Origin: Rhodamnia argentea
Taxonomy: Eukaryota > Streptophyta > Magnoliopsida > Myrtales > Myrtaceae
Direction: 5' to 3'
NCBI RefSeq assembly: GCF_020921035.1
Contig: NC_063152.1
Coordinates: forward strand, 29,573,903 to 29,637,902
DNA: 64,000 nucleotides
Shown: positions 1 through 55,229 of the stretch, one piece after another
Layout of the letters: each line of letters begins with the position of its first letter
Numbering within the stretch: the stretch's first letter is position 1
Program-made: the position numbers and the translations under genes
Notes under the pieces: model-generated
Database searches by the model: none
What the model saw: only the letters and a program-made list of their open reading frames with translations
What the model was told of the DNA's origin: nothing

Positions 1-1112
1 TCGTGGCTAGTCAGGAAAATGGAGGCGCTTGTATTCCAGAGTGTCCTCAAGGGTATCATGCCATCATTGTAGATGGAAAATGTCAATGTGTTCCAACAGA
101 GCGTCGAGATGTCGCGGCTAGTCAGGAAAATGGAGGCGCTTGTATTCCAGAGTGTCCTCAAGGGTATCATGCCATCATTTTAGATGGAAAATGTAAATGC
201 GTTCCAACGGAGCGTCGGCATGTCGCAGCTAGTCAGGAAAATGGAGGTGCTTGTATTCCAGAGTGTCCTCAAGGGTATCATGCCATCTTTGTAGATGGCA
301 AATGTAAATGCGTTCCAACAAAGCATCGAGATGTCGCTGCTAGTCAGGAAAATGGAGGCGCTTGTATTCCAGAGTGTCCTCAAGGGTATCATGCCATCAT
401 TGTAGATGGAAAATGTCAATGTGTTCCAACAGAGCATCGGGATGTCGCGGCTAGTCAGGAAAATGGAGGCGCTTGTATTCCAGAGTGTCCTCAAGGGTAT
501 CATGCCATCATTGTAGATGGAAAATGTCAATGTGTTCCAACGGAGCGCCGGCATGTCGCAGCTAGTCAGGAAAATGGAGGCGCTTGTATTCCAGAGTGTC
601 CTCAAGGGTATCATGCCATCTTTGTAGATGGCAAATGTAAATGTGTTCCAACGGAGCGCCGGGATGTCGCGGCTAGTCGGGAAAATGGAGGCGCGTGTAT
701 TCCAGAGTGTCCTCAAGGGTATCATGCCATCTTTGTAGATGGCAAATGTAAATGCGTTCCAACGGAGCGCCGGCATGTCGCAGCTAGTCGGGAAAATGGA
801 GGTGCTTGTATTCCCGAGTGTCCTCAAGGGTATCATGCCATCTTTGTAGATGGCAAATGTAAATGCGTTCCAACAAAGCATCGAGATGTCGCTGCTAGTC
901 GGGAAAATGGAGGCGCTTGTATTCCAGAGTGTCCTCAAGGGTATCATGCCATCTTTGTAGATGGCAAATGTAAATGTGTTCCAACAGGGCACCGGGATTC
1001 CTTGGCTAGTTGTGTCGGCACTCATGACTGTGTCTCTATATGTGGCCATCCGAAGGAGCCAAAATGCTCGGTGCGTGCCAAGGGAAAATGTGTATGCCCG
1101 TGTAACCATTGA
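1..1112 (+). CDS. Cysteine-rich tandem-repeat protein with C-terminal defensin-like domain (5'-partial)
   Basis: The reading frame enters from outside the window, so signal peptide and start are not seen; it ends with TGA at 1110-1112. It holds nine nearly identical 37-residue units (111 bp). Each has four cysteines in the pattern C-x3-C-x12-C-x-C, around the words CIPEC, GYHAI and DGKCKC. Units are joined by charged linkers such as PTERRDVAAS, some with an Arg-Arg pair. The last ~35 residues are different: seven cysteines spaced C-x5-C-x3-C-x7-C-x7-C-x-C-x-C, like plant defensin-like (DEFL) peptides. A related gene lies 3 kb downstream on the same strand and shares the 3' flank. Secretion is inferred from that gene's signal peptide. 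Function is unknown; a defence or signalling peptide precursor is a guess. I do not recognise the repeat as a named domain. Confidence 0.8.
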   Translation, partial: VASQENGGACIPECPQGYHAIIVDGKCQCVPTERRDVAASQENGGACIPECPQGYHAIILDGKCKCVPTERRHVAASQENGGACIPECPQGYHAIFVDGKCKCVPTKHRDVAASQENGGACIPECPQGYHAIIVDGKCQCVPTEHRDVAASQENGGACIPECPQGYHAIIVDGKCQCVPTERRHVAASQENGGACIPECPQGYHAIFVDGKCKCVPTERRDVAASRENGGACIPECPQGYHAIFVDGKCKCVPTERRHVAASRENGGACIPECPQGYHAIFVDGKCKCVPTKHRDVAASRENGGACIPECPQGYHAIFVDGKCKCVPTGHRDSLASCVGTHDCVSICGHPKEPKCSVRAKGKCVCPCNH

Positions 1113-1275
1113 CTGATGCGTATTGGGAGCGTGTCCGTGTTAGGATAGGAAGCAAGAATAAAAGGGAATAAGAGACAGGCGAGTCATATGTGTCGGAGAT
1201 TTTCATGCATCAACTTTGCTCTTAATAAGATGGGTTCATACTATTGAGTATTCGACTTATCATCGAAGCATGGTC
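1081..1275 (+). repeat. 3' flank duplicated at 5450-5640
   Basis: The last codons of the defensin-like domain and about 150 bp of downstream sequence match 5450-5640 closely, including the CNH-stop end, the AATAAA signal and a later TTAATAA stretch. Similarity stops near GTATTCGACTTAT. This marks the edge of the segment duplication that produced the two genes. Confidence 0.75.
1157..1162 (+). terminator. Probable polyadenylation signal of the first repeat gene
   Basis: AATAAA lies 45 bp after the stop codon, in a 3' flank conserved with the second gene, where the same hexamer occurs at 5523-5528. Conservation between the duplicates supports a 3'-UTR role. Confidence 0.5.
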
Positions 1276-1589
1276 TAGCAATTTTAACTAGGCTGAACTT
1301 CTTAAAGCCTTGTTAGTTCTGATTTCGAAAATGAAGCAATCGGAGTTAATATGTAATTTCAGACCAAGGGAAATACTTCCTTGACAATACTGCTGGGGAT
1401 GGAGCAACCTCAACCATAAACCCACGAACCATCACCGCATATTTTGCATAAATTACTCAACAAAAATAACTAGCTGTACTGTCAAACCGTGAGGGTAGTA
1501 GCTTCCTCGGACCAATTAGTTTGTGTAATGCCGGTTACAAAATTCTCACCAAAGTAACTGTTAACAGATCAAAGGAAGTGCTACCACAA

Positions 1590-2300
1590 CTCGTCCTACC
1601 TCATCAAACTAGCTTTGTTCCTCGCAGACATATTTAGGACAATGCCATTATAACAATTGAAGCAATTTTCAATAAGCAAACTCCAAGAAAAATGTTGATA
1701 TATGATCCACAAAATTGACTTGGAAAAAGCGTAGGATCATCTTAAGTGGTTATGTATTGAGGAACTCTTCACATGTTTGGTATTCCATAATGTATGGTTG
1801 AGTTATTTTTGAACTGCATCACTTTAGCATCCGTATAAGTTTTGTGGAAACGCGATACAACAGAGGATTTCTTTCCAAGCGGGGAAATTCGTCAGGGCGA
1901 CCCTCTCTCGCCATATATCTTTGTGGTATGCATTGAAAGACTATCTCATCTTATTGATGCTCCAGTAAAGTCAAAGAGGAAGAAACCTTTTCATTTTGGA
2001 AAGAGGGGACCAAGAATTTCTTATCTACGATCTATTGTTAATGGCTAATCAAGGATTTATGTTGAAGTTATCATGGGGCCTCAACACTCAACCCAACTGT
2101 CTCTAGGCACAGGTTTTGAATGCCTAATATTGTTCAAAACAAAATAATGTACATGCTAAACCTGGTGACTCGACTTTATGGAAGGCGATTGATGGCTGGC
2201 TTTACGGGGCAAAGCTTTGTGGAACCTAGTAAATTATGGACAAATCGGGTTTTGGTTAGATAGATGGATTCTAGATATAGAGCCTCTCTGCAATATAATT
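1590..2300 (+). mobile_element. Degraded LINE (L1-type) reverse transcriptase fragment
   Basis: Translation in shifting plus-strand frames gives recognisable pieces of a plant L1 polymerase in the right order. A QTSFVPRRHI-like word near 1610 is followed by the strong motif IRQGDPLSPYIF with ERLSHLI near 1890-1960. A WRNLVNYGQIGFWLDRW-like stretch lies near 2220-2270. It is cut by stops and frameshifts and lacks both ends, so it is a dead remnant. It lies between the two cysteine-rich genes and is probably unrelated to their duplication. Confidence 0.7.
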
Positions 2301-2399
2301 AATTATCAATTATCTCCGGTCAAGATGGGCAGAAAAGTTTGTGATTATGTGATGAATATGAATTGAAATTTTTAGGCAATTTTGGGAATCGCACCAAAA

Positions 2400-4040
2400 G
2401 AAATAATTCTCCGACGAGAAAAATATTCTCATATGATAGGGAAGGAAACCGTCCTGCTAATTGACTTCCCAATCTTGTAATAGAGAAGTGATTGGATGTT
2501 GCATTCTACTCACAACCTCCCACGGAGTTATTTCATTCTTTGTTAGCCGATAAAATATGGGCGTTTGACGTGAGGACATAATTTTTATTTCCTTTGGTCT
2601 ACCCAAACATAGTACATGAGATAAAATAGGTTTTTTATTTTTATTTTTTCTATGAACACATTATGTGTAAAAAAAATTAGTTAAGGATATATAGGAAAGT
2701 AAAGAGAGATTAAATCCCTTAAAGGAAGGATAAATGGAAAGAATTAGTGAATAAGTGGAGTGAAAAATCGTGGGGGATTATCATCCTTTATTTTAATACG
2801 GACAAATAACATATAATTCTCTAACCGCTTCAACATGATGAAAGTTTAATTAACGGTCAACAAAATAATTAGCGACAAGAAAATTAATGACATTTTGTAA
2901 ATATGAATAATTAAAATCGAAAGTTTGCTTTATGATAGTTTGACTTCTGAAAAATCCGAATTAAGTTCCTTAGCAGCTTAAAACCAAATGAGTTGGATTT
3001 CTATTGTTCACTTGCACTTTCTGTGGCATATTTTAGTTGGTTCAGATAATGACAGTTTAGAGAAAAAGGAGAGCATTTATTTAATGAGAAGACATATACA
3101 TGCTAGGTATCTTTTTTTTTTAATACATAAGAGGATTAATCATTTAACTGTTGTAATTATATGTATTAATGGCTCAACAATTGCAAGACGTTACTTCATT
3201 CGTATCTATTCAGTTCCGCATGCTCTAGGGTCAGTAAAATCCATAATTGCTGCAATTATGGGGGTTAATGGTTCTTCGGTTTATGCAGCAGTTCCTTTTC
3301 TTCAGTTACGTGCCAAAGATTTAATAATGATTCTTCAAGTCACTGATATGTCTCTTCTTCTCACGCGCAGCAACATTAATGGACTCGTTAATGGATGCTC
3401 TTAAGTTCACGTGAAGAAGTGTGATTTTCATTTGTCAATTTAGAAAGGCACTCCTCTAAGTGGACCGGTTTCGAGAAGTGTTCGATAGAGTCCTATTTGT
3501 TTAGTTTTAATACAAATGGATTCGAAGAGTTGTATTTTGGGAGGTATAGATGGTGAAGCTACTTAGCACGGTTGGCATGAACTAATTGTGTTAAGGAGAT
3601 TCGGTTAGCCGTACTTCACCTCATGTTCAATTTATTTCGAATTTACAGTATTAAGCAAGTCTATATTTGAGTTGTAACATCATCTTCAATTGGAGAAATT
3701 ATATAAACATTGGCTTGGTCGTTATTATATTTATTCTCGGTTTTTTTTAGAGCTTTTTTTTATCTCTATTTATATTTTCTGATTACATAGTGTCGTGTTA
3801 CCTATTTTCCCCCCAATACTTTACGCATATATTTTCCAACATTAACTACATTATACAAATTACATTCATCTCATTAACTCCAAGAAATTCTCAAATTATG
3901 GTATGGCAATCTAGAATTACCCAATTGATCCAAAATCAAAAACCAATAACTATCATCAGGAAATGATATACATAGCAAGTTAATTACTATTAAAAAAAAA
4001 TCAAATCTTGCATTTACTCACACTCCTAAAATACCATGCT
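2400..4040. other. AT-rich intergenic spacer
   Basis: No convincing gene. A 138-codon open stretch at 2988-3404 has no recognisable domain, an AT-rich random-looking composition and no supporting context. Poly-T and AT-rich runs dominate near 2620-2660 and 3710-3770. Confidence 0.5.
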
Positions 4041-4051
4041 TTAGACATCTG

Positions 4052-4057
4052 TATAAA
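4052..4057 (+). promoter_or_regulatory. Putative TATA box of the second repeat gene
   Basis: TATAAA occurs 137 bp before the chosen ATG at 4189. A start site about 30 bp downstream would leave a 5' UTR of roughly 105 bp, typical for a plant gene. The assignment rests on position and sequence only. Confidence 0.4.
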
Positions 4058-4188
4058 CCCACTTCAGGGGGACTCATGACACATATCTTCCACAGTTGTC
4101 TTTAATAATCAAGCCCAAATTTCCTCTCTCTAATCCTTAAAAACACTGCAAAATCTTACCTCAAATAGTCAAGCCCACATACTCGGAG

Positions 4189-5478
4189 ATGGAGAATGGT
4201 CAAGCCAAGCTTAGTGCAATGGCCATTCTATTGGTGATTACATCTTGTAGGTTTCTCTCATCTCTCGTTTATTACTATTATATCTAAATGTAGAACTGCA
4301 CTAATGAATTTTCCATACTTCCCTTCTTTTAAGGTCTTGCTGTCTCACAAGCTGCAAAAGGACCAGCATATTGTCTTCAAGATAGCAAGGGAAAAGCTGA
4401 TGTGTGTCCTGTCGGGTATCATCCCATTTTTTTACAAGACCAATGTTTCTGTGTTCTGTCGCAGCGCTTGGATTCCTTGGGTTGTATTCCAATGATGTGT
4501 CCTATTGGGTCTCGTATGGTCATCGAGCATGGGCAATGTTTCTGCGTTCCACCAAAGCGCCGGGATGTCTCGCCTAGTCTAGAAAGAGAGGGCGTTTGTA
4601 TTCCAGAGTCTTGTGATATAGGGTATCATCCCATCCCTGAAGGTGGCAAGTGTAAATGTGATCCGAATGAGCACAAGGATATCTTGGTTGGTCGGGAAGG
4701 AGGAGTCGTTTGTATTCCGGAGTCGTGTGATATCGGGTATCATCCTATCCCCGAAGGTGGCAAGTGTAAATGTGTTTCGAATGAGCACAAGGATATCTCG
4801 GTTGGTCGGGAAGGAGGAGCCGTTTGTATTCCGGAGTTGTGTCCTTTCGGGTATCATCCCATCCCTGAAGGTGGCAAGTGTAAATGTGTTCCGAATGAGC
4901 ACAAGGATATCTCGGCTGGTCGGGAAGGAGGAGCCGTTTGTATTCCGGAGTAGTGTGATATCGGGTATCATCCCATCCCCGAAGGTGGCAAGTGTAAATG
5001 TGTTCCGAATGAGCACAAGGATATCTTGGTTGGTCGGGAAGGAGGAGCTGTTTGTATTCCACAATTGTGTCCTTTTGGGTATCATCCCATCCCTGAAGGT
5101 GGCAAGTGTAAATGTGTTCCAAATGAGCACAAGGATATCTCAGCTGGTCGGGAAGGAGGAGCCATTTGTATTCCAGAGTCGTGTGATGCCGGGTATCATC
5201 CCATCCCTGAAGGTGACAAGTGTAAATGTGTTCCGAATGAGCACAAGGATATCTCGGCTGATCGGGAAGGAGGAGCCGTTTGTATTCCGGAGTCGTGTCC
5301 TATCGGGTCTCATCCCATCCTTGAAGGTGACAAATGTAAATGTGTTCCGAATGAGCGTTGGGATATCCCGATTAGTTGCACCAACAATCACGATTGTCTC
5401 TCTATTTGTGGCCATCCGAAGGAGCCAAAATGCTCGGCCCGTGCCGAGGGCAAATGTGTATGCCGGTGTAACCATTGA
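4189..5478 (+). pseudogene. Cysteine-rich tandem-repeat / defensin-like gene, interrupted copy
   Basis: Exon 1 (4189-4246) and exon 2 (from 4334) are joined by an 87-bp GT-AG intron in phase 1. Exon 1 starts MENGQAKLSAMAILLVITSC, and exon 2 continues LAVSQAAKGPAYC, giving a clear secretory signal peptide split by the intron, as in typical plant defensin-like genes. Two divergent cysteine modules follow, then seven 36-38-residue units (period 114 bp) with C-x4-C-x12-C-x-C around CIPESC, GYHPI and GGKCKC. The seven-cysteine end domain (C-x5-C-x3-C-x7-C-x7-C-x-C-x-C) closes at 5478. The frame from the signal peptide stops at 4953, inside the array, while the sequence beyond stays coherent. It is either a recent pseudogene or makes a shortened protein without the end domain. 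Sequencing error or an allele cannot be excluded. Confidence 0.75.
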
Positions 5479-5522
5479 TTGATGCGCATTGCGAGTGTGT
5501 CCGTATTAGGATAGTAAGCAAG

Positions 5523-5528
5523 AATAAA
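5523..5528 (+). terminator. Probable polyadenylation signal of the second repeat gene
   Basis: AATAAA lies 45 bp after the terminal stop codon, at the same place as in the first gene; a second AATAAA follows near 5590. Confidence 0.45.
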
Positions 5529-5639
5529 AGGGAATAAGAGAGAGGTGAGTTGTATGTGTTGGAGATTTTCATGCATCAACTTAGCTCTTAATAAAATGGG
5601 TTGATACTATTGAGTATACGACTTATTTTGGCAATCTCG

Positions 5640-6516: not shown

Positions 6517-9500
6517 TTTGATATCAGAGTTAGAAATGATATTTACTAGTTCCGTTCAATTGTGGCTTCCAAAGTTGAACTGAAAGAATTTCACCAAACC
6601 GGTCCGTCTAGATGAAGGTTCTTTTCAAATCACAAGATTTGTGGAATCTAGTTGAAAATGGCTATAACAACGTGGCCGATGTCAAAGCATTCGAGGTTTT
6701 AAGAAAGAAGGAGAAAGAATCTTTGGTGGATTCTCGGAAGAAAGATCAAAAGACATTGTATGCGATCTTTCCAGCCGTGAAGGAAACGATATTTCAAAAA
6801 GCATTGAGTGCGGAAACCGCAAAAGTAGCATGGGGTACTTTACAAAAATCATACAAAGGCGACAATTGTGTCCAACGAGTGCGTCCGCAAACGCTTCGAG
6901 GTGATTTCGAGTATTTACACATGAATAACTCCGAATCAATCTCGACATATTTTGATTGTGTGCAAAACCATCATTAATCAATTGAGAGTTAATGGTGAAG
7001 AACTCCACAATACACGTGTCGTAGAAAAAATCTTAAGGTCTTGACTGAAAGATTTCACTACGTCATCGTTGCGATCGAGGAAAGGCAAGATGTGTCAACC
7101 TTAATGTTGGAGTGATTGATGGGTTCATTCTGCTTGCATGAGCAAAGAATGAATCAAAAGTCTATTGGTTTAGTTCTCGTGCAAGCATTGCAAAGTCGAG
7201 TCGCTCCATCAAGTCGAGGAGGTCGAGATAGAGATGGAAATTCACATTTCATCGAAAAATTTAAAACACATGACAAATCAATAGTCAAGTGTTTTAAGTG
7301 CAACAAATAAGGACATTACAAATTCAAATGCCAGGCAAAGGCTACGTACGAGCGGGTTGAACATACACATGCCACCGATGCTGAAGAATACATAGTGCTA
7401 TCATGTAAGAAGGATGACTCGAGCACCATAGACACCAATATATGGTACCTGGATACGGGTTGCAGCAATCATATGTCCGGCCGGAAGGAATTATTCCCGC
7501 AGTTGGATGAGACGAGTTGTGGTGAAGTCAACTTCGAGAATAAATCAAAGATTATGGTGATGGGCAAAGATAACATTAATATCAAGTCAAAAGATGGTAC
7601 TAATGTTGTTATTGCATATGTTTACTTGGTGCCAAGACTTTTTTGGAATTTTTTTAGTGTTGGGCAACTTTCAAAAAAAGGCCATAAAGTTCACATTGAA
7701 AATGGAGTTTGCACTATCAAAGGTGCGAACAATAAATTGATCACAACGGTGCATATGACAAAGAACCGGATGTTTCTCATGACTCTTCGGACAAAAAATC
7801 TCTTTAGCTTTCAAGCAATGATGAAAGACAACTAGTGGCTGTGGCAACTTCGGTTCGTTCATCTAAATTTTTGCAGACTAAAATTATTGGTTCAGAAAAG
7901 ATGGTGACTGGCATGCCTTTGATCGACGGTCCAGACCGCCCATGTAAAGAATGTCTCATTGGAAAACAACATTGAGAATCATTTCCAATTGGAAAAGCTA
8001 GAAGAGCCAAGCAGCTTTTGGAGTTGGTACATACTGACATATACGGTCCTATTGAGGTTGAATCATTCGGACAAAAAAGGTTCATGCTAATTGTTGTGGA
8101 TGATTTTACTAGAAAAACTTGGGTATATTTCTTAAGAGAAAAATCTGAAGTATTTGGCAAGTATAAAGAATTTAAAGTCTATGTTGAAAAATATAGTGGT
8201 TTTAATCGGAAGACGTTGAGATCGGAAAGGGGGAGAATTTACCTCCAATGAATTTGACAAATACTATAAAATTCATGGAGTAAAACGTCGATTGACCGCC
8301 ACCTATACACCTCGGGAAAATGGTATAGCAGAAAGAAAGAACAGGATAATTTTTGAAATGGCAAGAAGTATGCTAAAAGCTAAAAATTTGCCTAAGAAGT
8401 TTTGGGCAGAAGCTGTTGCATGTGCTGTATTTGTACTAAACATGTGTCCAACAAGGAGTGTTCTTAGAAGAACCCCGGAAAAGGCTTGGAGCGGTAACAA
8501 GCCGGATGTTTCGTTCCTACTAGTATTTCGGTGCGTGGCATATCCCCATTTATCGGGATGAACAAAGAAAGAAGTTGGATGAGAAAAGCGAGAAATGCAT
8601 CTTCATTGGCTACAATGATACAACTAAAGGTTATAAGCTGTATAACCCGATCACCGAAAAGGTAATCATCAACAAGGATGTCCAATCTTTTGAAAATGAA
8701 GCCTAGGACTAGAACTAAAATGGTGACCAAAAAAGCATCACCATTGAAGATGAACCATTGGAGAGAGAAACGGAAGAACCTCCATCATCTTCGACTTGTA
8801 GTACATCTTTACCAACAGCAGCTTCAGAACCACCACCGAGTCATTCACAACGAGCGAGGGAGATGCCAGCAAAATTCAGGGATTATGTTGTTACAAGAGA
8901 CAATGACAGTGATAGTGACGGAATCATTGATGAAATAATGGTAAATATGATGAAGCAGTTGTATATGAAAAGTGGATCCACGTAATAGATGAAGAAATTC
9001 ACTCCATTGAGAAGAATGACACATGGGTACTAACTTCTTTACCACCTGGTAAGAAGTCTATTGGTGTCAAGTGGGTGTACAAGACAAAGTACAAACTCGA
9101 AAGTCGGGTGGACCGTTACAAAGCCGGACCGATTGTAAAGGGCTATAGGCAAAAGCCAAGTATTGATTATTTTGAACCATTCGCACTAGTGGCCCGAATG
9201 GTTACCATTCGGATGATCTTAGCACTTGTAGCTCAAATCCATTGGAGAATCCATCAAATGGATGTGAAATCAGCATTCCTTAATGACGTTCTTGTAGAGG
9301 AAGTCTATGTGGAGTAACCATAGGGTTATGAGAAAGGGCACGAAAATCAAGTTCACATGCCGAAAAAGGCATTGTATGGGCTAAAACAGGCACCTCGTGC
9401 TTGGTACACGTGGATCGACGAGTATTTGTTGGAGCATGATTTTCAAAAGTACCCGTATGAGCATACGTTGTATATCAAGTCAAATACTAACGGTGACAAC

Positions 9501-12402: not shown

Positions 12403-12688
12403 TTTTCATTATTGTACGGCTTTCTTGCTTTCTCTCATTCAATGTTATTTTCGATCGACCACTACAAAAGGCCGTCAAGTGCGGAGTAGTAATGCACACC
12501 GAAGCAAAAAGCATTTGTATTTCCATGAAAGTTTTTCCTCCGATGTCCTTTTTTTTTGTCCCATTATTCTAAATTTTTCCAAGTCATCGTTTTTGTTTTG
12601 ATTCCAGCATGCACTTGACATTATAGCATGATCTGAGCTCCGAAACTTCAGAAGTCGGAAGCACAACCAAAAACGAGCCAGTAACGAT

Positions 12689-14617
12689 ATGTCCATTGCC
12701 CGGAAACTCACACCAAACACCAGATTCTCATCCCTATCTCTCGACAAGTCCATCAAGTCCCGGAAAAACCTCTCCAAGCCGACACCGAAACTCTGGCCTG
12801 ACGATGTCAAGCGACGAACTTTAATCACAAACGATGAAGAAGTCGACGAATTGACGTTAGCCCATCCGATTCTGCGCAGATTGGAGTCGAGTAATAGTAT
12901 CAGAGAATTCAACCAAGCCCATGCGCAGCTAGTTGTCACTCGTCTCTCTCAACACTCTCTTGCCACAAGCCGAGCCGTGAAGAAACTCTGTTCTTTGCGC
13001 GAGGTTGCTCGTGCGGCTTCGTTCTTCAGGTGTACCCAAGAGCCCGATGCTTTTCTGTGCAATACTATTATGAGAGCTTATGTCAACATGAACGACGCCT
13101 GTAGTGCTATGAGATTTTATTATGACGAGATGGTGGGGAATGATGTTTCACCGAATCACTATACGTTTCCCATTGTTGTGAAAGGGTTTGTGGGGATTGG
13201 GTCATTGACCGAAGGAGAGAAGGTTCATGGCAGGGTGTTAAAACTTGGGTTTGACTCGGATTTATTCGTGAGGAATGCGTTGATTCACATGTATTCGGTT
13301 TTTCGAAAAGCTGGGAGTGCGCGCTTGGTGTTTGATGCAGGGCCTGTGTTGGATTTGGTTAGCTGGAATTCCATGATTGATGGTCATGTGAAGAATGGGG
13401 AAGTGGATGTTGCTCGCGAACTTTTCGATGAAATGACTGAAAGGGACGTCTTCAGTTGGAACTCGATGATTGCGGGTTATGTTGCGCGAGGGGACATGGG
13501 TGAGGCACAATGGTTGTTTGATAGAATGCCGTTAAGGGACATCGTCTCATGGAATTGTATGATTGATGGGTGTGCAAGGATTGGAAATGTGTCGGAGGCT
13601 CGCAGGTTTTTTGATTCGATGCCTTTCCGGAATGTGGTTTCGTGGAATACCTTGTTGGCTCTTTATGTACGTGTTAAAGGCTATACGGAGTGTTTGAGTT
13701 TGTTTGATAGTATGCTACAAGAGGAAGAGATTAAACCCAATCGGGCTACTCTTGTGAGTGTTTTAACTGCATGTGCCAATACAGGGGACCTCAATACAGG
13801 CCACTTGGTTTCTTCTTACATGAAGGATAATGACATTGAAGCTGACACGCTGCTTTTGACTGCGCTATTAACAATGTATGCAAAATGTGGCACTATGGAT
13901 TTAGCCAGGAAAGTGTTTGATCAGATGCCTGATAGAAGTGTTGTCTCATGGAATGCTATGATCATGGGGTATGGAATACATGGGCATGGCGGGAAAGCCC
14001 TGGAGATGTTCTTGGAGATGGAGAAGAGAGGTCCAATGCCAAATGACGCTACCTTTGTCAGCATATTCTCTGCCTGCACCCATTCTGGAATGGTTTTGGA
14101 AGGTTGGTGGTGTTTCAACCTAATGTCTCGGGTATACAAGATCCAACCTAAGGTTGAGCACTATGGTTGCATGGTCGATCTTCTTGCTCGTGCTGGGCTG
14201 GTGAAGGATTCAGGAGAGTTGATTAAAGAAGTACCTACCGAGGCAGGATCTTCACTATGGGGTGCTCTGCTTTCTGCCTGTAGGACCCATTCTCACATCG
14301 AACTAGGAGAGATGGTGGCCAAGCGTTTGATCGAGTTGGAACCAACAGATGTTGGGCCCTATGTGCTATTGTCAAACATGTATGCAGCCGAAGGTAATTG
14401 GGTTGCAGTCAAGAATGTCAGGATGATGATGAAGGCAAAGGGTTTGCATAAGGAAGTTGGGTCCAGCCTCATTCAACTTGGAGGCGTCGAATCTACAGAG
14501 TCCGCAAAAGATGGCATGCACCATCAGAGAAGTATGATTTATACAATGTTAAGTGAGATTGGTTCACAGATAAAAGCATCCTCTAGAGACTCCACGGCAG
14601 TAGAGGATCGAGAGTAG
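12689..14617 (+). CDS. PLS-class pentatricopeptide repeat protein with E domain
   Basis: Single-exon gene of 642 codons. The N-terminus is basic and rich in Ser and Arg, as in an organelle-targeting sequence, though I cannot score it. PPR units begin near residue 70 (NQAHAQLVV) and continue to about residue 490. Repeated words such as VSWNSMIDG, ARELFDEM, YAKCG and PDRSVVSWNAMI mark alternating P, L and S motifs. The end has the E-type motif (LWGALLSACR, then VGPYVLLSNMYAAEGNW), with no DYW deaminase domain. E-class proteins bind organelle RNA and generally serve C-to-U editing with a partner deaminase; the specific target is unknown. ATG at 12689 is the first in frame. Its paralogue is at 30814. 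A copia LTR ends 79 bp upstream of the ATG. Confidence 0.92.
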   Translation: MSIARKLTPNTRFSSLSLDKSIKSRKNLSKPTPKLWPDDVKRRTLITNDEEVDELTLAHPILRRLESSNSIREFNQAHAQLVVTRLSQHSLATSRAVKKLCSLREVARAASFFRCTQEPDAFLCNTIMRAYVNMNDACSAMRFYYDEMVGNDVSPNHYTFPIVVKGFVGIGSLTEGEKVHGRVLKLGFDSDLFVRNALIHMYSVFRKAGSARLVFDAGPVLDLVSWNSMIDGHVKNGEVDVARELFDEMTERDVFSWNSMIAGYVARGDMGEAQWLFDRMPLRDIVSWNCMIDGCARIGNVSEARRFFDSMPFRNVVSWNTLLALYVRVKGYTECLSLFDSMLQEEEIKPNRATLVSVLTACANTGDLNTGHLVSSYMKDNDIEADTLLLTALLTMYAKCGTMDLARKVFDQMPDRSVVSWNAMIMGYGIHGHGGKALEMFLEMEKRGPMPNDATFVSIFSACTHSGMVLEGWWCFNLMSRVYKIQPKVEHYGCMVDLLARAGLVKDSGELIKEVPTEAGSSLWGALLSACRTHSHIELGEMVAKRLIELEPTDVGPYVLLSNMYAAEGNWVAVKNVRMMMKAKGLHKEVGSSLIQLGGVESTESAKDGMHHQRSMIYTMLSEIGSQIKASSRDSTAVEDRE

Positions 14618-17352: not shown

Positions 17353-17721
17353 AAAAGACACTTATCTCAAATGATCTCTTAGATTAGACCTCAGACCACA
17401 TGTCATTCGTGTTCCCCTTTTTCGCCGTTGCATAGAGTCATTTTGTCCCCAATTAAACGCTAAAGTTTCTAATTTCTTGGCTAGATAAATCCTAATTTCG
17501 AATTTGAGAGAGTAGAATATGAAATTGTAACTTTAATTGAAGCAATAGAGAAACTCACATTTAAACTAAATTTTTGGGTGAATTTGTTTTGGAGAAAACT
17601 TCGTGTAAAAAAAAAGAAAAAACACTCTCCTGGAGATCATTTTTCGAGAAAATGATTAGTTTTTCTTTGTTTGGTGGCATGTGACCAAAATATTTTTTAG
17701 TGTTTGGATCTCATTTAAAAA
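17353..17721. other. Spacer and left edge of the 0.63-kb repeat array
   Basis: No gene seen. From about 17580 the sequence (TTTGTTTTGGAGAAAAC and similar) looks like the left end of the transposon that was later amplified into the array. Confidence 0.35.
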
Positions 17722-19742
17722 GTGATTTCAACCTCATGATTTTATCTCAAGCAAAAAACAAATCACATTTTTTTTGTTTCTTTTATTTTTTTCTGTCTAC
17801 CTCCATCATGACCGACCATGGTGGCCATCGGTGAGCTCGAGGCTTGTTAAATCCGGCGAGCCAAACAAACCTTGAGCTCATAGACCTCTAGCGAGCTCCT
17901 CACCGTTGACCACAACTGGCCGATCGTGGTGGAGGAAGAAGGAAAAATAAAAATAAAATGAATCTAAAAATATAATATTCGAATACTAAAATAATTTGAG
18001 GGGAACATTTCCAAAAAATATTTTCATTTCTTTAGATTTATGAATTAACTTTCATAATTTTATGCATGAATTTCTGATAACCGGAAAGATTCGGCGAACC
18101 AAACCGATGAAAGTCCAAAAAATTAATTCCTTGAAAACACTTTCACTCAATCAAACGCACAATTAAAACGAGTTAAAACCCTAAATCTCTGAAAATTGCA
18201 CACATTCACTTGCCCATACCCTTTTGCATGCAAGAAATCACTTACCTGGTTCGCCTCAATCCATGATCTTCGATCGGGCCCTCATTCCACACTTACAATT
18301 TTGGATTTCTAATGCACCATGATCAACTGAAAGAGATTTTCTCTTAAAAATGATTTCAATCTCAAGATTTTATCTAGGCAAAAAAAAAAATCACATTTTT
18401 TTTTTTTTTATTTCTTTTTATTTTCCTGTCTTCCTCCACCATGACCGGTCATGGTGGCCATTGGTGAGCTCAAGGCTCGTCGGATCCGGTGAGCCTAACA
18501 AGCCTCGAGCTCACCAACCTCTAGCAAGCTGCTCGCCAGTAACCACCGCCGGCCTGTCACGGTGGAGGAAGAAGGAAAAAGAAAAAGAAGAATAAAATGA
18601 ATTTAAAAATATAATATTCGAATACTAAAATAATTCGAGAAGAACAATTCCAAAAGATATTTTCATCCTTTTAGATTTGTGAATTGACTTACTTAATTTT
18701 ATGCATGAATTTTCTGTTGATTAGAAGGATTTTTTTATTTTTGGCGAACTAAACCGATAAAAGTCTAGAAAATTAATTCCCAAAAAACACTTTCACTCAA
18801 TCAAACCAACAATTAAAACGAGTTAAACCCCTAAATCTCTAAAAATTGCACACATTCGTTTCCCATACTCTTTTGCATGCAAGAAATCGCTTACATGGTT
18901 CGCCTCGATCCATGATATCTTCGATCGGGCCCTCATTCCACACTTGCAATTTTGAATTTCTAATGCTCCATGACAGACTAAAAGCAATTTTATCTAAAAA
19001 ATGATTTCAATCTTATGATTTTATCTAGGCAAAAAAAATCACATTTTTTCTCTTTTTTTCCTGTCTTCCTCCACCATGATCGGCCATAGTGGCCATCGGT
19101 GAGCTCAAGGCTCGTTGGATCCGGCGAGCCTAACAAGCCTCGAGCTCATCGACCTCTAGTGAGCTGCTTGCCGGTGACCATTCTTGGCTGGTCACGGTGG
19201 AGGAAGAAGGAAAAAGAAAAAGAAGAAAAAAATGAATTTAAAAATATAATATTCGAATACTAAAATAATTTGAGAGGAACAATTCCGAAAAATATTTTCA
19301 TCTCTTTAGAGTTATGAATTAACTTTCTTAATTTTATGCATGAATTTTTTGTTGACCAGAAAGATTTTTTTATTTTCGGCTAACCAAACCAATGAAAATC
19401 CAGAAAACTAATTCCTAGAAAACACTTTCACTCAATCAAACGAATAATTAAAATGATCTCTAAAAATTGAACACATTCACTTGCCCATACTCTTTTGCAT
19501 GCAAGAAATCGCTTGCCTAGTTCGCCTCAATCCATGATACCTTCGATTGGGCCCTCATTCCACACCTGCAATTTTGAATTTCTAATGCTCCATGATCGAC
19601 TAAAAGCGCTTTTTTTTCTAAAAAATGATTTCAATCTCATGATTTTATCTAAGAGGAAAAAAATCACATTTTTTTTCTTTTTTGTTTCTTTTTATTTTCC
19701 TATCTTCCTCCACCATGATCGGCCCCGGTGGCCATCGGTGAG
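17722..19742. repeat. Tandem array of ~0.63-kb units, first part
   Basis: Direct units start with the phrase RTGATTTCAA at 17722, 18350, 19001 and 19625, giving lengths of 628, 651 and 624 bp plus a partial fourth unit. Each unit contains a CT-rich stretch, a core with CACCATGACCGGTCATGG and GAGCTC motifs, a GA-rich stretch, then an AT-rich tail with GCATGCAAGAAATC and GATCGGGCCCTCATTCCACA. The fourth unit is cut at 19742 by the gypsy element and resumes at 29983. The units look like a tandemly amplified non-autonomous transposon with flanking DNA. Confidence 0.85.
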
Positions 19743-21122
19743 TGTCACGACCTAAAAAATAAACAAGTTAATTTTCGGGCTAATGGATTATCAGGTTAAT
19801 TAATTAACTAACCTAACTCGGATTCTCCCAAGTCCATACCAAATCGCAACTTAAGGTTCAAATAATTAACATGCAACGTGTTTTGAATTTGGAGTCGCCA
19901 CTAATCATTTTCGGTAGGTTGATTAGAAACCTAAATAAAATAGCGGGAGAAAACTATCTTATTTCCGCGAACCGGAGATTTTGAATTCGGGGATTTGGTT
20001 ACGCTAGATTACTCTAACGCCCTTTCGGTACCATTTTCATGAAAAATATTTGATTTGGCAATTTCGATGGATTTTACTTGAAATTCAAAGATGCAATTTT
20101 TTTGGTTTTTTCTTCTTTTTTATGGGGATGTAAAACATTGAACTTTGTACGATATACACCATGGATGATTTAGAAAGAAAGAAAACGCAGCCAATCACGA
20201 GTATTTACAAAAATAAATTAACATGTAATAATGCTAAATTTTGGGACACGTGACATGTCTAAAATAAAAAAACAAATGTTCACACCAAACGATTACATTT
20301 TTGTAGATCGAGATGGAAAGGGTTACCTTCTATTCCACAAAATCTTACTCACGTACACGTTATGGCTTCCTTCAAGATCTCGGAGTTGGAAGAACGTGGC
20401 TATCGTCGAAAAAAGGCAAGCGGTGGCGTTGTTGGATGGCGAGAGGCGAAGTACGTGCCGGGACTCGTCGAAGATGATGCTCGACTAAAACTCTTTTCTT
20501 CACTCTCAAATTTTCTCTTACGATTTTTCTCAAGAACTCTCTTTTTTCCTCTCTAAAGAATTTCTCTCACAAATTCTCTCAATTCTCTTCCACTCTAAAA
20601 CTCTCTCAATTCTCTTTCACTCCCTCCTCCAATTCTCAAGAACTCTCCCCCTTTTATAGCCAAATTTCTCCATCATCTTCCCTTCTTCATCTTCTCTTCA
20701 TCATCTTCTCTTCATCACCTTCCCTTCATCATATTCATCTTCTCTTCTTCATCTTCCCTTCACCATCTTCCTTTCATTATCTTCTCTTCTTTATCTTCTC
20801 TTCATCACCTTCCCTTCATCATCTTCCCTTCATCATCTTCCCTTCTTCATCTTCTCTTGGTATTTGCAATGCAGTCCCCTGAAGTTTCAAGTATTTGCAA
20901 TACGAGTCCACGAAGTTTTAAGTATTTGCAATACAGTCCCTGAAGTTTCAAATCTTCTCGGTATATTTTTCCATCCCGTGCCTAGTCTAGACGCATGCTA
21001 AATTAAGTGTTCTGCTTGCCCAATTATATGCCAATGCAATGTACGCTAAAAATAAATATATGAGATGATTTTTTTATAATTTTTATGCAAAAAATAGATT
21101 AATCAAAATTTAGGCGTCAACA
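19743..21122 (-). repeat. Gypsy LTR (downstream copy in element sense)
   Basis: A 1380-bp LTR almost identical to 28640-29977. It contains a long CTTCATCATCTTCCC-type pyrimidine-rich low-complexity tract near 20570-20860, which accounts for most of the length difference between the copies. Confidence 0.9.
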
Positions 21123-21485
21123 GCTGCCCCTCTTTGAGTGGAGGCTCGTAGAGGTTCCGCTCAAAGACAAAATTGAATCCTAAATTTTGACAGTGCAAAT
21201 TATGGATGAACTTTTTGGCGGGAGTTTTAATCCCATTTTTTATGTAATGAAGTGATGCATGATATGCAAGACTGTAAATAACATGTGTCATAATTTCCCT
21301 TTTTCATGATAGAGAAACCTACACATGGATCGCATACAAGAATACCTGTTTTACCAAATTTCTCGTAAGCTAATGGTTCTCTTAATTTCCAAGCTTCTTT
21401 TTGCGGATGCAAGGATTTTAAGGTATTTGGCCTATCTGTTATCAGAGACTTCTCCCTAATGCAAGACAGCGCAAGATATGTGTGT

Positions 21486-26419: not shown

Positions 26420-27313
26420 TCAGCCATTGCGATGAGATGGCTGAATGACGTGGCAAGCAGATCCCAAAATTCGAGTTCTCATAATCGGCGGCGGGGTGGA
26501 AACAAACAATTTCATGAGTTCCCTTTCGGGAGGGACCGGTTTCAGCTGAGATGCCACGTTCCTCCACCTAGTGGCATATTGCTTGATTGTTTCTTCCTTT
26601 TTCATCTCAAGCTGCTCAAGGTCCTCTCTGGTGGTGAGCACGTCCAAGTTAAAGCTGAAATGTTTGATGAAAGCATTAGCTGCCTTCTCCCAATCATCCA
26701 TCCGGTAGATCTCGTAGTCCGTATACCATCTCATGGCAGCTTCTTTTAAACTAGCCTGGAAGGTCTGAACCATTAAGGGACCGTTGGTCGCATGCTTATT
26801 CATTCTTGCCTGGTACATCCGGACGTGCTGAACCGGGTTGGAAGTTCCATCATACTTCTCAAAGTCGGGCATCTTGAACTTCTCCGGCACCGTGACCTTT
26901 GAAAAGACAGACGAGTCAACTCGGGGTATGTTGTGAGTCCCCTCAACCTCTCGGATCCTCTGTTCCATTTGGGCCAACAGTTTGACCGTATCACCATTCA
27001 ACCCAGGGCCCACAGGGTTGGCTTGAGGGATTGGGACTACGGGCGGCGTGCTCGAGTTCACGCCTGTGATGATCACATCCTCTAGCGGCATTGTCGGATA
27101 GGGAGTAGCTTCTAGGGCTTTACCGACGTTGTCCGTAGGAGGAATTAGAGCAGGAATGGTTAGCGGCGGGCTGGAGGTGGATGATTGAAGTTTGGCGGCA
27201 AAGGCGGCCATCATTTCCTCCATCTTTCGGGACATCATCCCTTCAAAGCGCTCGGTCAAGGAGCCAAGTTTCTCATCCAGGGCAGCACTAACGGTGGCGT
27301 TGATGTCGGCCAT
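26420..27313 (-). mobile_element. Gag-like coding region of the gypsy element
   Basis: A 297-codon frame on the minus strand. The second half carries the retrotransposon gag signature around FKMPDFEKYDGTSNPVQH, AAMRWYTDYE and YATRWRNVASQLKP, preceded by a coiled-coil-like N-terminus rich in Glu and Met. It belongs to the LTR element, not to a host gene. Confidence 0.88.
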
Positions 27314-28639
27314 CCTTTTTGCTAACGATCGGGTGATATGTGGAGGATCCGTGATAAATTACCTGTACACAGTAACAAACCCAAAATGAGTACAGGGAGC
27401 AAGAATAGCGAGCCGGCCCATGGCATCCCTCTAGACTCAAACGAACAAAGTGATTATGACCAAAGGATTGAAACATGTAATTTTCAGTTTATCCGCTTTT
27501 ACGAAAAAATTCATATTAATTCGCACGTTGATCAAAACATGTCCAAATTTTACGAGCTTGTAGTTGAGAAGATGATGAACAACTTTTATGTTGGCCAATC
27601 GGACTAGAAATGCACGGGTCAAATCAGTTTAATGTGTTTTTCCAAAAAATCACATTCAGAAAACTGTTATAACCGCAGGTAGTTGAAAAAACGAAAGGCC
27701 ATCTTAAATTATGAATTTAATTCTGAAATTTTGTAGGATATTAGTTGAAACATAGGTCTACAACTTTCGTGTTTGGTACTTACTCAAAGCTCGATCGTAG
27801 AATTTAGTAAAAATCGCACAACAAGAACAAGCCAAATCAGAAATGAGGACAACTGATGAAATTGTAAAAGCTACGGAAGCAAAGTGCGAAATTGGAAATA
27901 AGACAACGATACTCCTAAACCATGGACCAGCTCAAAATAAAAATGAGATAACAGGGTACAAGAGACAAGAAATTACCTCTCATACGAAGAAAATGCCAAT
28001 CACAAAGACATGCGCATGAATTGTGAGTTTAAATCTTATTCTATCTATCCAAAAGGCTTTTGCAAAGTGAAATGATGAACGAAACGACATGTCGCAGCCT
28101 CACAAGACAGTCATCATGACTAGTCGCAACCTCGCGTACAATAGTCATGACTAGTCGGGTCCAATCACTTCGGCTTGGTTCGGTCGACAAGGGCAATTCT
28201 CATGCATCGTAGCCTCACGTGTATGAGAACGACTCTTGAGCCATTTTTTGGAAAAATTTTCGGGATCCAGATAGGATAACCTTTAGCGAAACCTTACCAC
28301 CAAGGTTAAAGAACCATCTAAATACCATCTTAAAACTATTAGTGTGACCCAGGTCCGGTCACGGGTTATGTGCAATGTAGTGCAAATACGATAAATCATG
28401 CACAACAATTAAAGGCAAACATCGCTTCAATGATTCAAAAGTTAAATCACAATTCCAATTCACCAAGTCTGCAAAACAAAGGGTTAGCCGATCACTCCTC
28501 CCCTTATAACTCCCAATCTGCAAAAGCATTTAACACCTAAGAATGAGAATTCAACCAAAGTTTGCCAAATCAAGTGATTCCTTTTTCATGAAATTATCCG
28601 GCCTAAGTCCTCTTAAAGTCCCCGGTGGAGTCGCTAAGC

Positions 28640-29977
28640 AGTCACGACCTAAAAAATAAACAAGTTAATTTTCGGGCTAATGGATTATCAGGTTAATTAA
28701 TTAACTAACCTAACTCGGATTCTCCCAAGTCCATACCAAATCGCAACTTAAGGTTCAAATAATTAACATGCAACGTGTTTTGAATTTGGAGTCGCCACTA
28801 ATCATTTTCGGTAGGTTGATTAGAAACCTAAATAAAATAGCGGGAGAAAACTATCTTATTTCCGCGAACCGGAGATTTTGAATTCGGGGGATTTGGTTAC
28901 GCTAGATTACTCTAACGCCCTTTCGGTACCATTTTCATGAAAAATATTTGATTTGGCAATTTCGATGGATTTTACTTGAAATTCAAAGATGCAATTTTTT
29001 TGGTTTTTTCTTCTTTTTATGGGGATGTAAAACATTGAACTTTGTACGATATACACCATGGATGATTTAGAAAGAAAGAAAACGCAGCCAATCACGAGTA
29101 TTTACAAAAATAAATTAACATGTAATAATGCTAAATTTTGGGACACGTGACATGTCTAAAATAAAAAAACAAATGTTCACACCAAACGATTACATTTTTG
29201 TAGATCGAGATGGAAAGGGTTACCTTCTATTCCACAAAATCTTACTCACGTACACGTTATGGCTTCCTTCAAGATCTCGGAGTTGGAAGAACGTGGCTAT
29301 CGTCGAAAAAAGGCAAGCAAGTGGCGTTGTTGGATGGCGAGAGGCGAAGTACGTGCCGGGACTCGTCGAAGATGATGCTCGACTAAAACTCTTTTCTTCA
29401 CTCTCAAATTTTCTCTTACGATTTTTCTCAAGAACTCTCTTTTTTCCTCTCTAAAACTCTCTCAATTCTCTTTCACTCCCTCCTCCAATTCTCAAGAACT
29501 CTCCCCCCTTTTATAGCCAAATTTCTCCATCATCTTCCCTTCTTCATCTTCTCTTCATCATCTTCTCTTCATCACCTTCCCTTCATCATATTCATCTTCT
29601 CTTCTTCATCTTCCCTTCACCATCTTCCTTTCATTATCTTCTCTTCTTTATCTTCTCTTCATCACCTTCCCTTCATCATCTTCCCTTCATCATCTTCCCT
29701 TCTTCATCTTCTCTTGGTATTTGCAATGCAGTCCCTGAAGTTTCAAGTATTTGCACATCGATCCTCGAAGTTTTAAGTATTTGCAATACAGTCCCTGAAG
29801 TTTCAAATCTTCTCGGTATATTTTTCCATCCCGTGCCTAGTCTAGACGCATGCTAAATTAAGTGTTCTGCTTGCCCAATTATATGCCAATGCAATGTACG
29901 CTAAAAATAAATATATGAGATGATTTTTTTATAATTTTTATGCAAAAAATAGATTAATCAAAATTTAGGCGTCAACA
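28640..29977 (-). repeat. Gypsy LTR (upstream copy in element sense)
   Basis: A 1338-bp LTR matching 19743-21122. The right edge GTCAACA joins directly to the GTGAG target duplication and the resumed tandem array. Confidence 0.9.
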
Positions 29978-29982
29978 GTGAG

Positions 29983-30505
29983 CTCAAGGCTTGTTGGATT
30001 TGGCGAGCCTAACAAGCCTCGAGCTCACCGACCTCTAGCGAGCTGCTCACCGGTGACCACCGCCGGCCTGTCGCGGTGGTCACAGGAGGAAAAAGAAAAT
30101 GAAAAAGAAGAATAAAATGAATATAAAAATATAATATTTGAATACTAAAATAATTTGAGAGGAACAATTCCAAAAAATATTCTCATCGCTTTAGATTTAT
30201 GAATTAACTTTCCTAATTTTATGTATGAATTTTCTATTGACCAGAAAGATTTTTTTATTTTCAAAGAACTAAACCGATGAAAGTCTAGAAAACTAATTCC
30301 CGAAAAACATTTTCACTCAATCAAACCTACGATTAAAACGAGTTAAAACCCTAAATCTCTCAAAGTTGCACATGTTCACTTGTCCATACTTTTTTGCATG
30401 CAAGAAATCCTTTCCTCCTTCGCCTCAATGCATGATATCTTTGATCGGGCCCCCATTCCACACCGGCAATTCAGAATTTCTGATTCTCCATAATTGACTG
30501 AATTA
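29983..30505. repeat. Tandem array, remainder of the fourth unit
   Basis: Sequence continues the interrupted fourth unit in phase (CTCAAGGCTTGTTGGAT, then the CACCGCCGGCC core, purine arm and GCATGCAAGAAATC tail). It shows that the gypsy element inserted into an already amplified array. Confidence 0.85.
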
Positions 30506-30813
30506 ACTCTAAAATTTGAAATTTCAGCTCTATCTTCTCTTCCAATAATTTATTAACTACAATTGATAACTAATTATTTCTGTGAATAGTGAAAATATTT
30601 TTTTATTTATTTTTATAAAAGGTAAAATCAATATTTTTCTGAAAAAGTTTTTCAAATTTTTAGAAAAAATAAACTTCCCCCTTTTTTTTAAAAACATTTT
30701 TTTGGCCGCCAATATTGGAGGACCTACGATCCACGATCCAAATCGGTCTGAAAACCCACAAAAGTAACGACCACCACCCCGCCAGGCGCCAGATTCGCCT
30801 GCCTCTCCGACCA

Positions 30814-49536: not shown

Positions 49537-51146
49537 TCATCTAAGTAATGCTGATATTCGACCAAAAAAAAAAAAGTAATGCCGATAGATGTAGGAAATG
49601 AATCCCCAGATTGCCAGAATCATTGCCATCACCTTAATCCCGTCCATCTTGTCATGAAAGAATAGCACCGCAAGAATCGGAACAACCGGCAATGCCAAGG
49701 TACTGATTACGTTGGAAAACAGTGACGACACCTCGAAAATCAGCCCGAGCAGACCCACCGAGGAGATCTGCCATGTCAGCGCCGTCCAAATTAATGACAT
49801 CAAGTACGACACTCTTCCCTCCTCGTATGCCTTCATCTCGCCGCCTAGTTTCCTCCACTCTCCGCTCAAGAAAAGCCCAACAACGCAGGAGCAAGTCGCC
49901 ACGAATGATGGGTATATTTGCATATCCAGCACAGCAGAAAACGTTTCTCTTTTGATCACTTTTTCGAAGGAAAGCTGAGCTAATGAAAGGTACAATGAAT
50001 ATGTGGCGGACGCTCCCGGGGTACACAGGAATCCGATCACGTACTTCGCTCTCGAGGTCTTTGTGGTGTCAGAGTCCGAGTGAACCGCAAGGAGCGAGGC
50101 TGACACAGTGAGCAGAACGAGGGAATTGAGAATGAATGGGGTGAACTTTTGGGAGTTTAGGAAGAAGGAAAAGAGTGCATTGAAGGCCAATTGAGTTGCA
50201 CACAAGATAGAGTAAGTAGAAACGGGAAGATAGAGCAGACCGTATGAGTACATCAGGTTGTCACCAGTCAAGAGCAGGCCAAAGGCGAGGTAGAGGAGAG
50301 CTAAGGAAGAGAGCTTTGGTTTGGTTGGAGATCGAGTACTTGTAGGCCTGTTTGAATTGGAGAACACTGGTGTGTTGAAAATTAGAAGAGGTATGAGAAT
50401 CTGTTACAGTATTAGAAAAAGGATACCGACAATATGCAATGGAGTACGTTTATTCCTTACTACTCAAAAAAAACTTACAACAGATGCTCCATTTAAAGAG
50501 CTCATACCCAACGGTTAATAAAGAAAGTGCATCCACAAACTCCTAAAAAACAGCAACTGTGTAGAAACCTCCTATTGACTTGGTAAAACACAAAGCCATG
50601 TTCAGCACCACTAAAACAAACTCCTAATAACTAGGACACTAAACAACTGATTATTCTACTAAAATAAAATAATAAAATAAATAAACATGGTCCACGTGAC
50701 TCAACAGAATCGGGAAGCCAGCAGATTGAACAAAAGTGGCCATCCATTTGCTATTACCGCCTTTGTCGTAATACAGTCTGCCTAAAAGGGTCGCCGCGGA
50801 TTGGCCGGAGAGGAGGAAGACGATGTAGGCGGCGACCCGTATCAGCCATTTGTAACTTCTGGTCCTTGGATGCTGAAGGTCATGATTGTCCACATCCACA
50901 ACAGGGTCTTCTCCATTCGATTTCGGTTCTCTGCGCTCCTCTCAAAGAACCAGTAAGAAAAAAGAAGTAAGAATTTGCAGAGTCAATTTGGGTGCATTAA
51001 AATCGGGTGACAGGATGAGAATATCCCCAAAATACATCATGCATTCAAGATCGATTCGAAATTCTCAAATTGCTGTACATTATTAGCAAGCTTTTGCTCA
51101 GTGACTGACCTCCAGTTTGCAGTTGCAGCTCTCTTGCAGTCTCCAT
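49537..51146 (-). CDS. Purine permease (PUP family) with an altered C-terminus
   Basis: Three exons: 51110-51146, about 50696-50940, and 49537-50400. Exon 1 reads METARELQLQTG; exon 2 holds LSGQSAATLLGRLYYDKGGNSKWMATFVQSAGFPIL; exon 3 holds LLTGDNLMYSYGLLYLPVSTYS, CATQLAFNALFSFFLNSQKFTP and LFFHDKMDGIKV. Those phrases and about ten hydrophobic segments identify the plant PUP family of the drug/metabolite transporter superfamily. These carry purines, cytokinins or alkaloids at the plasma membrane; the substrate here is unknown. The predicted length is about 381 residues. The exon 2 donor is the weakest point. The C-terminus runs IYRHYFFFFGRISALLR because of a small insertion at 49557-49573; the family-like tail YQHYLDDAESRKDEAN lies beyond it in another frame. 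Confidence 0.87.
49543..49587 (+). mobile_element. Micro-insertion TTCGACC-A(n) in the last permease exon
   Basis: AAGTAATGCTGATA (49543-49556) and AAGTAATGCCGATA (49574-49587) flank only 17 bases, TTCGACC followed by A. The 13/14 match marks a target duplication. The insertion plus duplication shifts the permease frame at its end. Confidence 0.75.
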
Positions 51147-55211: not shown

Positions 55212-55229
55212 CTTGTTTTGTGTTCAATT

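Follow-up and report, generated by a model that had tools for sequence, protein, structure and literature searches.

Two genes of a small Rhodamnia argentea family, predicted to encode secreted disulfide-rich mini-proteins, contain a long chain of copies of one small unit

What does a plant gene encode when it repeats the same four-cysteine unit nine times in a row, and where might such a gene have come from? The question is raised by two adjacent genes, here called gene 1 and gene 2, at the start of a 64,000-nucleotide stretch of the Rhodamnia argentea genome (the window; C3:29573903-29637902, C3 being contig NC_063152.1; the genome has 74 contigs and 346.7 Mb). They belong to a small family of genes for putative disulfide-rich secreted mini-proteins, and each of these two members carries a long chain of copies of one small unit. 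The window starts inside gene 1, for which 30 kb of sequence upstream was added; the complete gene, read from the same genome, has an intact product of 454 residues. Window coordinates left of base 1 are counted so that the base directly before base 1 is 0. The gene models, i.e. exons, introns and N-terminal peptides, were predicted from splice signals and hydropathy.

Gene 1 lies on the plus strand. Exon 1, at window -345 to -288, encodes MEKGQVKLSALVLLLVIAS and ends on the first base of the following codon; an intron of 93 nucleotides comes next, between the exons at -288 and -194, starting with GTAGGT and ending with TTTAAG. Exon 2 (-194 to 1112, with 1..1112 inside the window) has a frame that is open from -195. 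The predicted product consists of a hydrophobic N-terminal peptide, two irregular four-cysteine modules, nine regular 37-residue modules with the spacing C-x3-C-x12-C-x-C (1..998, the first starting one base before the window) and a C-terminal seven-cysteine domain, the tail (999..1109), followed by a stop codon at 1110-1112. The count of nine near-identical modules given in the original prediction proved exact for this gene; Tandem Repeats Finder reports 9.0 copies of a 111-nucleotide unit at 1-998 (93% matches, score 1646). Pairwise DNA identity of the modules is 87-98%, the third and eighth modules being 98% identical, and the linkers between them read ERRD, ERRH, KHRD, EHRD and GHRD.

Gene 2 spans 4189 to 5478 of the plus strand and has the exon plan of gene 1. 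Its signal peptide, proposed earlier to be split, is split in the predicted model as well: exon 1 (4189..4246) encodes the bulk of the putative signal peptide (MENGQAKLSAMAILLVITS) and is separated by a phase-1 intron of 87 nucleotides (4247..4333) from exon 2 (4334..5478). Exon 2 includes two irregular modules (4360..4566; C-x10-C-x12-C-x-C and C-x4-C-x12-C-x-C), seven regular 38-residue modules with the spacing C-x4-C-x12-C-x-C (4567..5364) and the C-terminal seven-cysteine domain (5365..5475). Tandem Repeats Finder detects 6.7 copies of a 114-nucleotide unit at 4593-5356 (90% matches, score 1234), and the linkers are mostly NEHKD. An in-frame TAG at 4951..4953, in the fourth regular module (context GAG-TAG-TGT) and left out of the original prediction, interrupts the exon; the predicted product is therefore 225 residues long, and the last modules and the tail, which is 3' of the stop codon, are no longer in the reading frame of gene 2. 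The earlier description of two adjacent genes on one plan thus stands for the exon plan, the modules and the tail, and not for an uninterrupted gene 2. The remaining anatomy was described correctly: four cysteines in each module, basic residues between modules (ERRD, KHRD and EHKD are present), a tail of the form C-x5-C-x3-C-x7-C-x7-C-x-C-x-C in both genes, and, judged by the predicted products, the overall build of secreted cysteine-rich proteins in which a module array precedes a defensin-like domain.

Length of the open frame is by itself weak evidence that these arrays are coding, because a frame without a stop stays open through every copy of a repeat whose unit is a multiple of three; in gene 1 exon 2 one of the reverse frames runs on for 310 residues. 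The pattern of changes between modules is better evidence. Ten of the 19 distinct single-base changes among the nine modules of gene 1 are synonymous, against ~26% expected (one-sided p 0.005, 0.012 and 0.024 with three transition weights). The corresponding figure for the gene 2 modules is 14 of 40 and is not significant (p 0.07, 0.14 and 0.23); two ‘stop’ changes, the real TAG and a two-base change from AAG to TGG that had been counted singly, were excluded from the 40. The 35 amino-acid changes of the two arrays all spare the cysteine codons (p ~0.018). All of these tests assume independent changes, an assumption that sequence exchange between modules may violate. Subject to this reservation, the changes are in line with a functioning gene 1 and a less constrained gene 2. 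It also counts for more than frame length that the similarity of the two genes extends beyond the modules, with 80% identity over 250 columns of the common 5' flank, 86% in the intron and 90% over 151 nucleotides from the stop codon into the 3' flank (1110..1260 in gene 1, 5476-5626 in gene 2).

Two versions of the tail, each searched against the whole genome, returned the same four copies, those of genes 1 and 2 and of two further genes, U1 and U2, located upstream of gene 1 within C3:29564000-29573999. Four of four candidates were scored each time, and one pair matches the other only weakly (E 0.008 to 0.08). Within the scope of these searches the tail domain is restricted to this cluster. 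U1 and U2 have the exon 1 peptide and phase-1 intron of genes 1 and 2, with a six-cysteine domain in place of the modules; U2 is a 73-residue precursor with the spacing C-x5-C-x4-C-x7-C-x4-C-x-C. Genes 1 and 2 have seven cysteines in the tail (spacings 5,3,7,7,1,1). The out-of-frame tail-like stretch of U1 retains eight (5,3,7,2,4,1,1), and that of U2 seven, the missing one being the first, unlike in genes 1 and 2. A model that splices the N-terminal peptide to the tail can be drawn on paper for U2; there is none among the top four models for U1.

Shorter relatives are found elsewhere on the same chromosome. A genome search with one of them as query scored 28 candidates. At E <1e-10 it gave nine short exon-2 loci, counting that of the query itself, and all of them lie on C3, at 16.98-17.01 and 17.90-17.97 Mb; no match off C3 is significant, the only one having E 0.55. 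Three of the nine loci contain stop codons, and one further locus misses a module cysteine and has no exon 1 within the 330 nucleotides read upstream. Only two, B2 and B4, have complete and plausible two-exon models. These encode 91 residues each and include a half module (with one cysteine in B2 and two in B4) and one C-x3-C-x12-C-x-C module, without a tail. The ratio of nonsynonymous to synonymous divergence (dN/dS) between B2 and B4 is ~1 (0.25/0.26), giving no sign of constraint. The second cluster (C3 16.97-17.00 Mb) also holds, in three places, degenerate pieces that resemble the start of the six-cysteine domain, two of which have E 0.07 and 1.9 in the whole-genome search.

The predicted starts of these genes further tie the clusters together. 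A strongly hydrophobic stretch is common to the N-terminal peptides of six genes, and all eight matches (E up to 10) of a composite N-terminal peptide against the whole genome are at family loci; this search did not list U1 and U2, despite their having the same exon 1. Promoter alignment of six genes from three clusters places a TATA-like element 80 to 140 nucleotides before the start codon of genes 1, 2, U2, B2, B4 and one gene of the third cluster. Its sequence in gene 2 is GTATAAA (4051..4057, plus strand), which on general grounds we take to be a TATA element; at the aligned site gene 1, U2 and the genes of the two other clusters carry TATATAAA or TATATATA. In the gene models the intron splits a codon after its first nucleotide, a little ahead of the first cysteine, a placement that is also described for NCRs and defensins (PMC12461094). 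Overall, the loci look like a birth-and-death process among small tandem genes of one chromosome, and fast turnover of the family is the best reading of the predicted loci.

The mature six-cysteine domains of U1 and U2 alone, among all parts of these genes, show similarity to a named family. With their N-terminal peptides, U2 and U1 score 23.9 bits (E 5.3e-5) and 22.7 bits (E 1.3e-4) against the late nodulin family, PF07127; without them the scores are 18.7 and 15.7 bits. The mature U2 domain matches at E 0.0023 and none of eight cysteine-fixed shuffles did, in a test where the filters of HMMER keep most matches above E 0.1 from view. In a search of the PDB U2 also hits chickpea NCR13 (7th8), at E 0.0044; for U1 the value is only 1.3. 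A profile built from 21 modules, with U1 and U2 excluded, found U2 at 20.6 bits in the six frames of 174 kb, where the best score in 20 residue-shuffled sets of the 174 kb translations was 12.4 bits. On the U2 domain itself the profile scores 21.4 bits, a value reached by none of 1000 cysteine-fixed shuffles (best 15.4). Profile-profile comparison of the module with U1 and U2 gives a probability of 79% and matches the four cysteines of the module to numbers 2, 3, 5 and 6 among those of the U domain. Variant 1 of NCR13 pairs its cysteines 1-4, 2-5 and 3-6 (PMC11637438). As the module is without cysteines 1 and 4, which pair with each other in that variant, the missing two would be one bonded pair, and we infer that the module derives from the six-cysteine domain. 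A single module is predicted to form a hairpin of strands 19-24 and 27-32, with a block pLDDT of 74 and 79 over residues 11-30; these models were built on the window's own sequences only and are weak, that of the single module being of moderate quality and the one of two modules plus tail too poor for use.

How does such a family compare with known ones? The original prediction of an unrecognised family is not supported in that form. The module and the tail have no credible match in Pfam, with which the arrays, a single module, the tails, the two short relatives and the neighbours were scanned, or in NCBIfam, which gave only matches far under the cut-off on three proteins. The single-domain neighbours U1 and U2, however, resemble late nodulins/NCRs below the cut-off, and the module seems to be derived from their domain. 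Searches of PDB sequences gave a best E of 0.42 for the second half of gene 2 and no match for the gene 1 tail. The genes share with the NCR/late nodulin family (PF07127) the hydrophobic N-terminal peptide, the phase-1 intron just before the mature peptide and the U2 spacing; they differ from it by their four-cysteine modules, the arrays of nine regular modules and the tail domain. NCRs are described as mature peptides of 20-50 residues with four or six regularly spaced cysteines (PMC7230169). U2 has six cysteines in its 73-residue precursor, and the array genes have four per module, with 51 in total in gene 1. The predicted models also show the NCR gene structure of two exons, the first encoding the signal peptide, and a phase-1 intron (PMC12461094). 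NCRs are further marked by nodule-specific expression in legumes; a leghaemoglobin query of the same genome gave only three matching stretches of ~40 residues each with 54-67% identity, which is not decisive.

Looked at more broadly, a signal-like peptide, a phase-1 intron, a cysteine-rich mature part and C-x-C near the end place the genes among defensin-like (DEFL) sequences. Plant defensins (PF00304) are likewise secreted cysteine-rich peptides with C-x-C close to the end; this eight-cysteine family matched no family member scanned. Six PF00304 matches do occur elsewhere in the genome, on C1 and C6, so the method is able to see small cysteine-rich genes. Precursors of alpha-hairpinins of the wheat Tk-AMP-X type resemble genes 1 and 2 in having a signal peptide, a multi-module four-cysteine cassette and a short C-terminal part, and are described as holding 5-12 modules that are proteolytically cut into mature peptides (PMC7191063). 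Their motif is C-x3-C-xn-C-x3-C in a helix-loop-helix, whereas the second pair is C-x-C in 17 of the 17 aligned modules here and the module is predicted to be a beta hairpin; the motif of alpha-hairpinins is absent. MtDef5 similarly joins two defensin-type domains by a short linker in one secreted chain. It is described as two 50-residue domains, each predicted to be a full CS-alpha-beta fold, and reported to be the sole gene for a bi-domain defensin in Medicago truncatula (PMC5700942); it differs from genes 1 and 2 in having no array. The peptide family described in PMC13308600 is different, disordered and not relevant. No plant precursor with this module was found in the literature searched, which covered mostly open papers and is not proof of absence. 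The family is best filed among defensin-like secreted proteins, with the NCR-type domain as its nearest relative and an unusual array architecture.

Taken together, these results point to an NCR-type defensin-like family of predicted secreted proteins on one chromosome, whose domain gave rise to a two-disulfide derivative that expanded, within the gene, into an array. We give this reading a probability of about two in three. Under it, the six-cysteine domain would have given rise to the module by losing disulfide 1-4 of the CS-alpha-beta fold while 2-5 and 3-6 were retained, and the arrays would grow and homogenise through unequal crossing-over. The gene 1 product would be secreted and supply many copies of one small disulfide hairpin. 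The most likely use of the array would be a higher dose or valency of a module of which short relatives have a single copy, either through cutting at basic linkers such as ERRD and KHRD or, less likely, as an uncut multivalent chain. By analogy with this kind of family, the likeliest role would be defence at the cell surface.

A number of results weigh against this reading. Both U1 and U2 miss the curated PF07127 cut-off of 30.4 bits. The same profile found no match in genes 1 and 2, the gene 1 tail or the two short genes, and gave only 9.4 bits (E 1.8) on the gene 2 tail; searched against the whole genome it found none either, nor in 14 control genomes, which is not proof of absence. The module profile does not list U1 at E up to 1. 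The disulfide pairing of NCR13 variant 1 is a structure prediction of its authors, supported by nuclear magnetic resonance, and a second folded form of NCR13 pairs differently (PMC11637438). Mean AlphaFold pLDDT is low, at 66 for one module and 51 for two modules plus tail. A Foldseek search with the predicted module gave 182 matches up to E 10, none of them at 0.001, and the best had E 2; this top match, a modular cysteine-rich eggshell membrane protein, is a curiosity only. The cysteine count of the mature gene 1 protein is odd, at 51, so at least one would be unpaired or bonded to another chain.

The charge of the module and the history of the tail count on the same side. Typical antimicrobial peptides are cationic, unlike the modules, which are slightly acidic (net charge -1 and -2, isoelectric point 5.6 and 5.5), and this acidity speaks against a simple cationic, membrane-lytic role. 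The tail aligns convincingly with neither the module nor the six-cysteine domain in hhalign (probability 3.5 and 2.3). In U1 and U2 the tail-like stretch is out of frame, with shifts in opposite directions. The tails of the two array genes are different at 21 of their 111 nucleotides (dN 0.19, dS 0.34); this domain has changed no more slowly than the intron or the 3' flank, and constraint on it is modest at best.

Alternatively, the gene 1 array might belong to a repeat family that is already known. One candidate is the furin-like cysteine-rich region (PF00757) of animal receptors, against which gene 1 scores 40.9 bits (cut-off 26.8). Gene 1 equally passes the cut-offs of Ig_J_chain (44.4 against 27), BsNagA_N (31.4 against 27.4) and Furin-like_2 (30.6 against 28). 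These four families are unrelated and cannot all be correct, their scores are summed over the near-identical copies, and none is matched by gene 2 pieces, a single gene 2 module or the two short genes. We regard all four as artefacts of summed near-identical repeats and membership in such a family as extremely improbable. The more serious alternatives concern the use of the array, and here our order of preference is release of the modules, then an intact chain, then a non-functional expansion. Release would make gene 1 a multi-peptide precursor that is cut at the basic linkers, with single 37-residue modules as the active product. The linkers of both genes are indeed basic, each of the two complete short relatives has a single four-cysteine module, so that the module can stand alone, and the cutting described for alpha-hairpinin precursors with 5-12 modules (PMC7191063) offers a parallel. 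However, the linkers vary, basic residues included, and the cleavage sites are putative; we put this use just short of an even bet. Its fullest form, in which a three-disulfide NCR-type defensin became a two-disulfide repeat and then a polyprotein that would release ~9-11 mini-peptides, nine of them near-identical, and a distinct tail peptide, is unlikely as a complete chain of events; such a defensin-like polyprotein was not found described for plants in the literature searched.

An uncut secreted chain of disulfide hairpins could instead bind a repeated target multivalently; the tail would then serve as an anchor or, through an unpaired cysteine, for dimerisation. The near identity of the gene 1 modules at the DNA level is in line with this, as is a tail that is unlike the modules and yet present in both genes, with an odd number of cysteines (seven) where U1 has eight. 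The module has no precedent for such a use in the literature searched, the target is hypothetical, and the difference in charge between tail and modules fits a precursor equally, which leaves the intact chain a tentative and rather doubtful proposal. MtDef5 (PMC5700942) offers a precedent for linked domains, as alpha-hairpinins (PMC7191063) do for module release, and both differ from the present genes in fold or copy number. Finally, the arrays might be no more than the outcome of unequal crossing-over in a decaying family. The stop codon in gene 2, the frame shifts before the U1 and U2 tails, the three short loci with stops, the one without a module cysteine, the mere two complete models among the nine and the dN/dS of ~1 between B2 and B4 would all agree with decay. 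Against it stand the 454 intact codons of gene 1, its synonymous excess (10 of 19), the unchanged cysteine codons, two intact short genes, and the TATA-like element and N-terminal peptide that are common across clusters. A non-functional expansion is the least probable of the three uses, and we consider it improbable. An NCR-type family with a derived, arrayed module is the reading that we retain.

The rest of the window holds genes and repeats of other kinds. Between genes 1 and 2, at 1839-2048, lies a short frame with the motif RQGDPLSPYIF, which presumably recalls a LINE reverse transcriptase and has no Pfam match. The broken frames at 6612-9317 recall, we assume, a copia-type element; the one piece scanned (8220-8558) had no Pfam match. 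Two direct repeats of ~1.4 kb with 95.7% identity (19723-21123 and 28620-29978) flank a gag-like frame on the minus strand (26423-27358, PF03732), and the pair with its frame is probably a long terminal repeat retrotransposon. A repeat of ~0.5 kb occurs several times in a row at 17715-19742 and once more at 29978-30502 (81-86% identity). Two pentatricopeptide-repeat genes with an E motif (12632-14617 and 30673-32625) are 76% identical over 1.76 kb. The minus strand encodes a purine permease-like gene (49537-50403, PF16913) and two adjoining invertase/pectin methylesterase inhibitor genes (53099-53725 and 54663-55223, PF04043).

Single-domain, one-module and array genes of one family thus lie on the same chromosome, and gene 1, if expressed, would give a rare view of a single-domain defensin-like gene turning into a multi-module one. 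Its expression would also make it a test of whether CS-alpha-beta peptides are still able to fold after the loss of one disulfide, and of whether there are relatives of NCR-type peptides beyond their usual setting.

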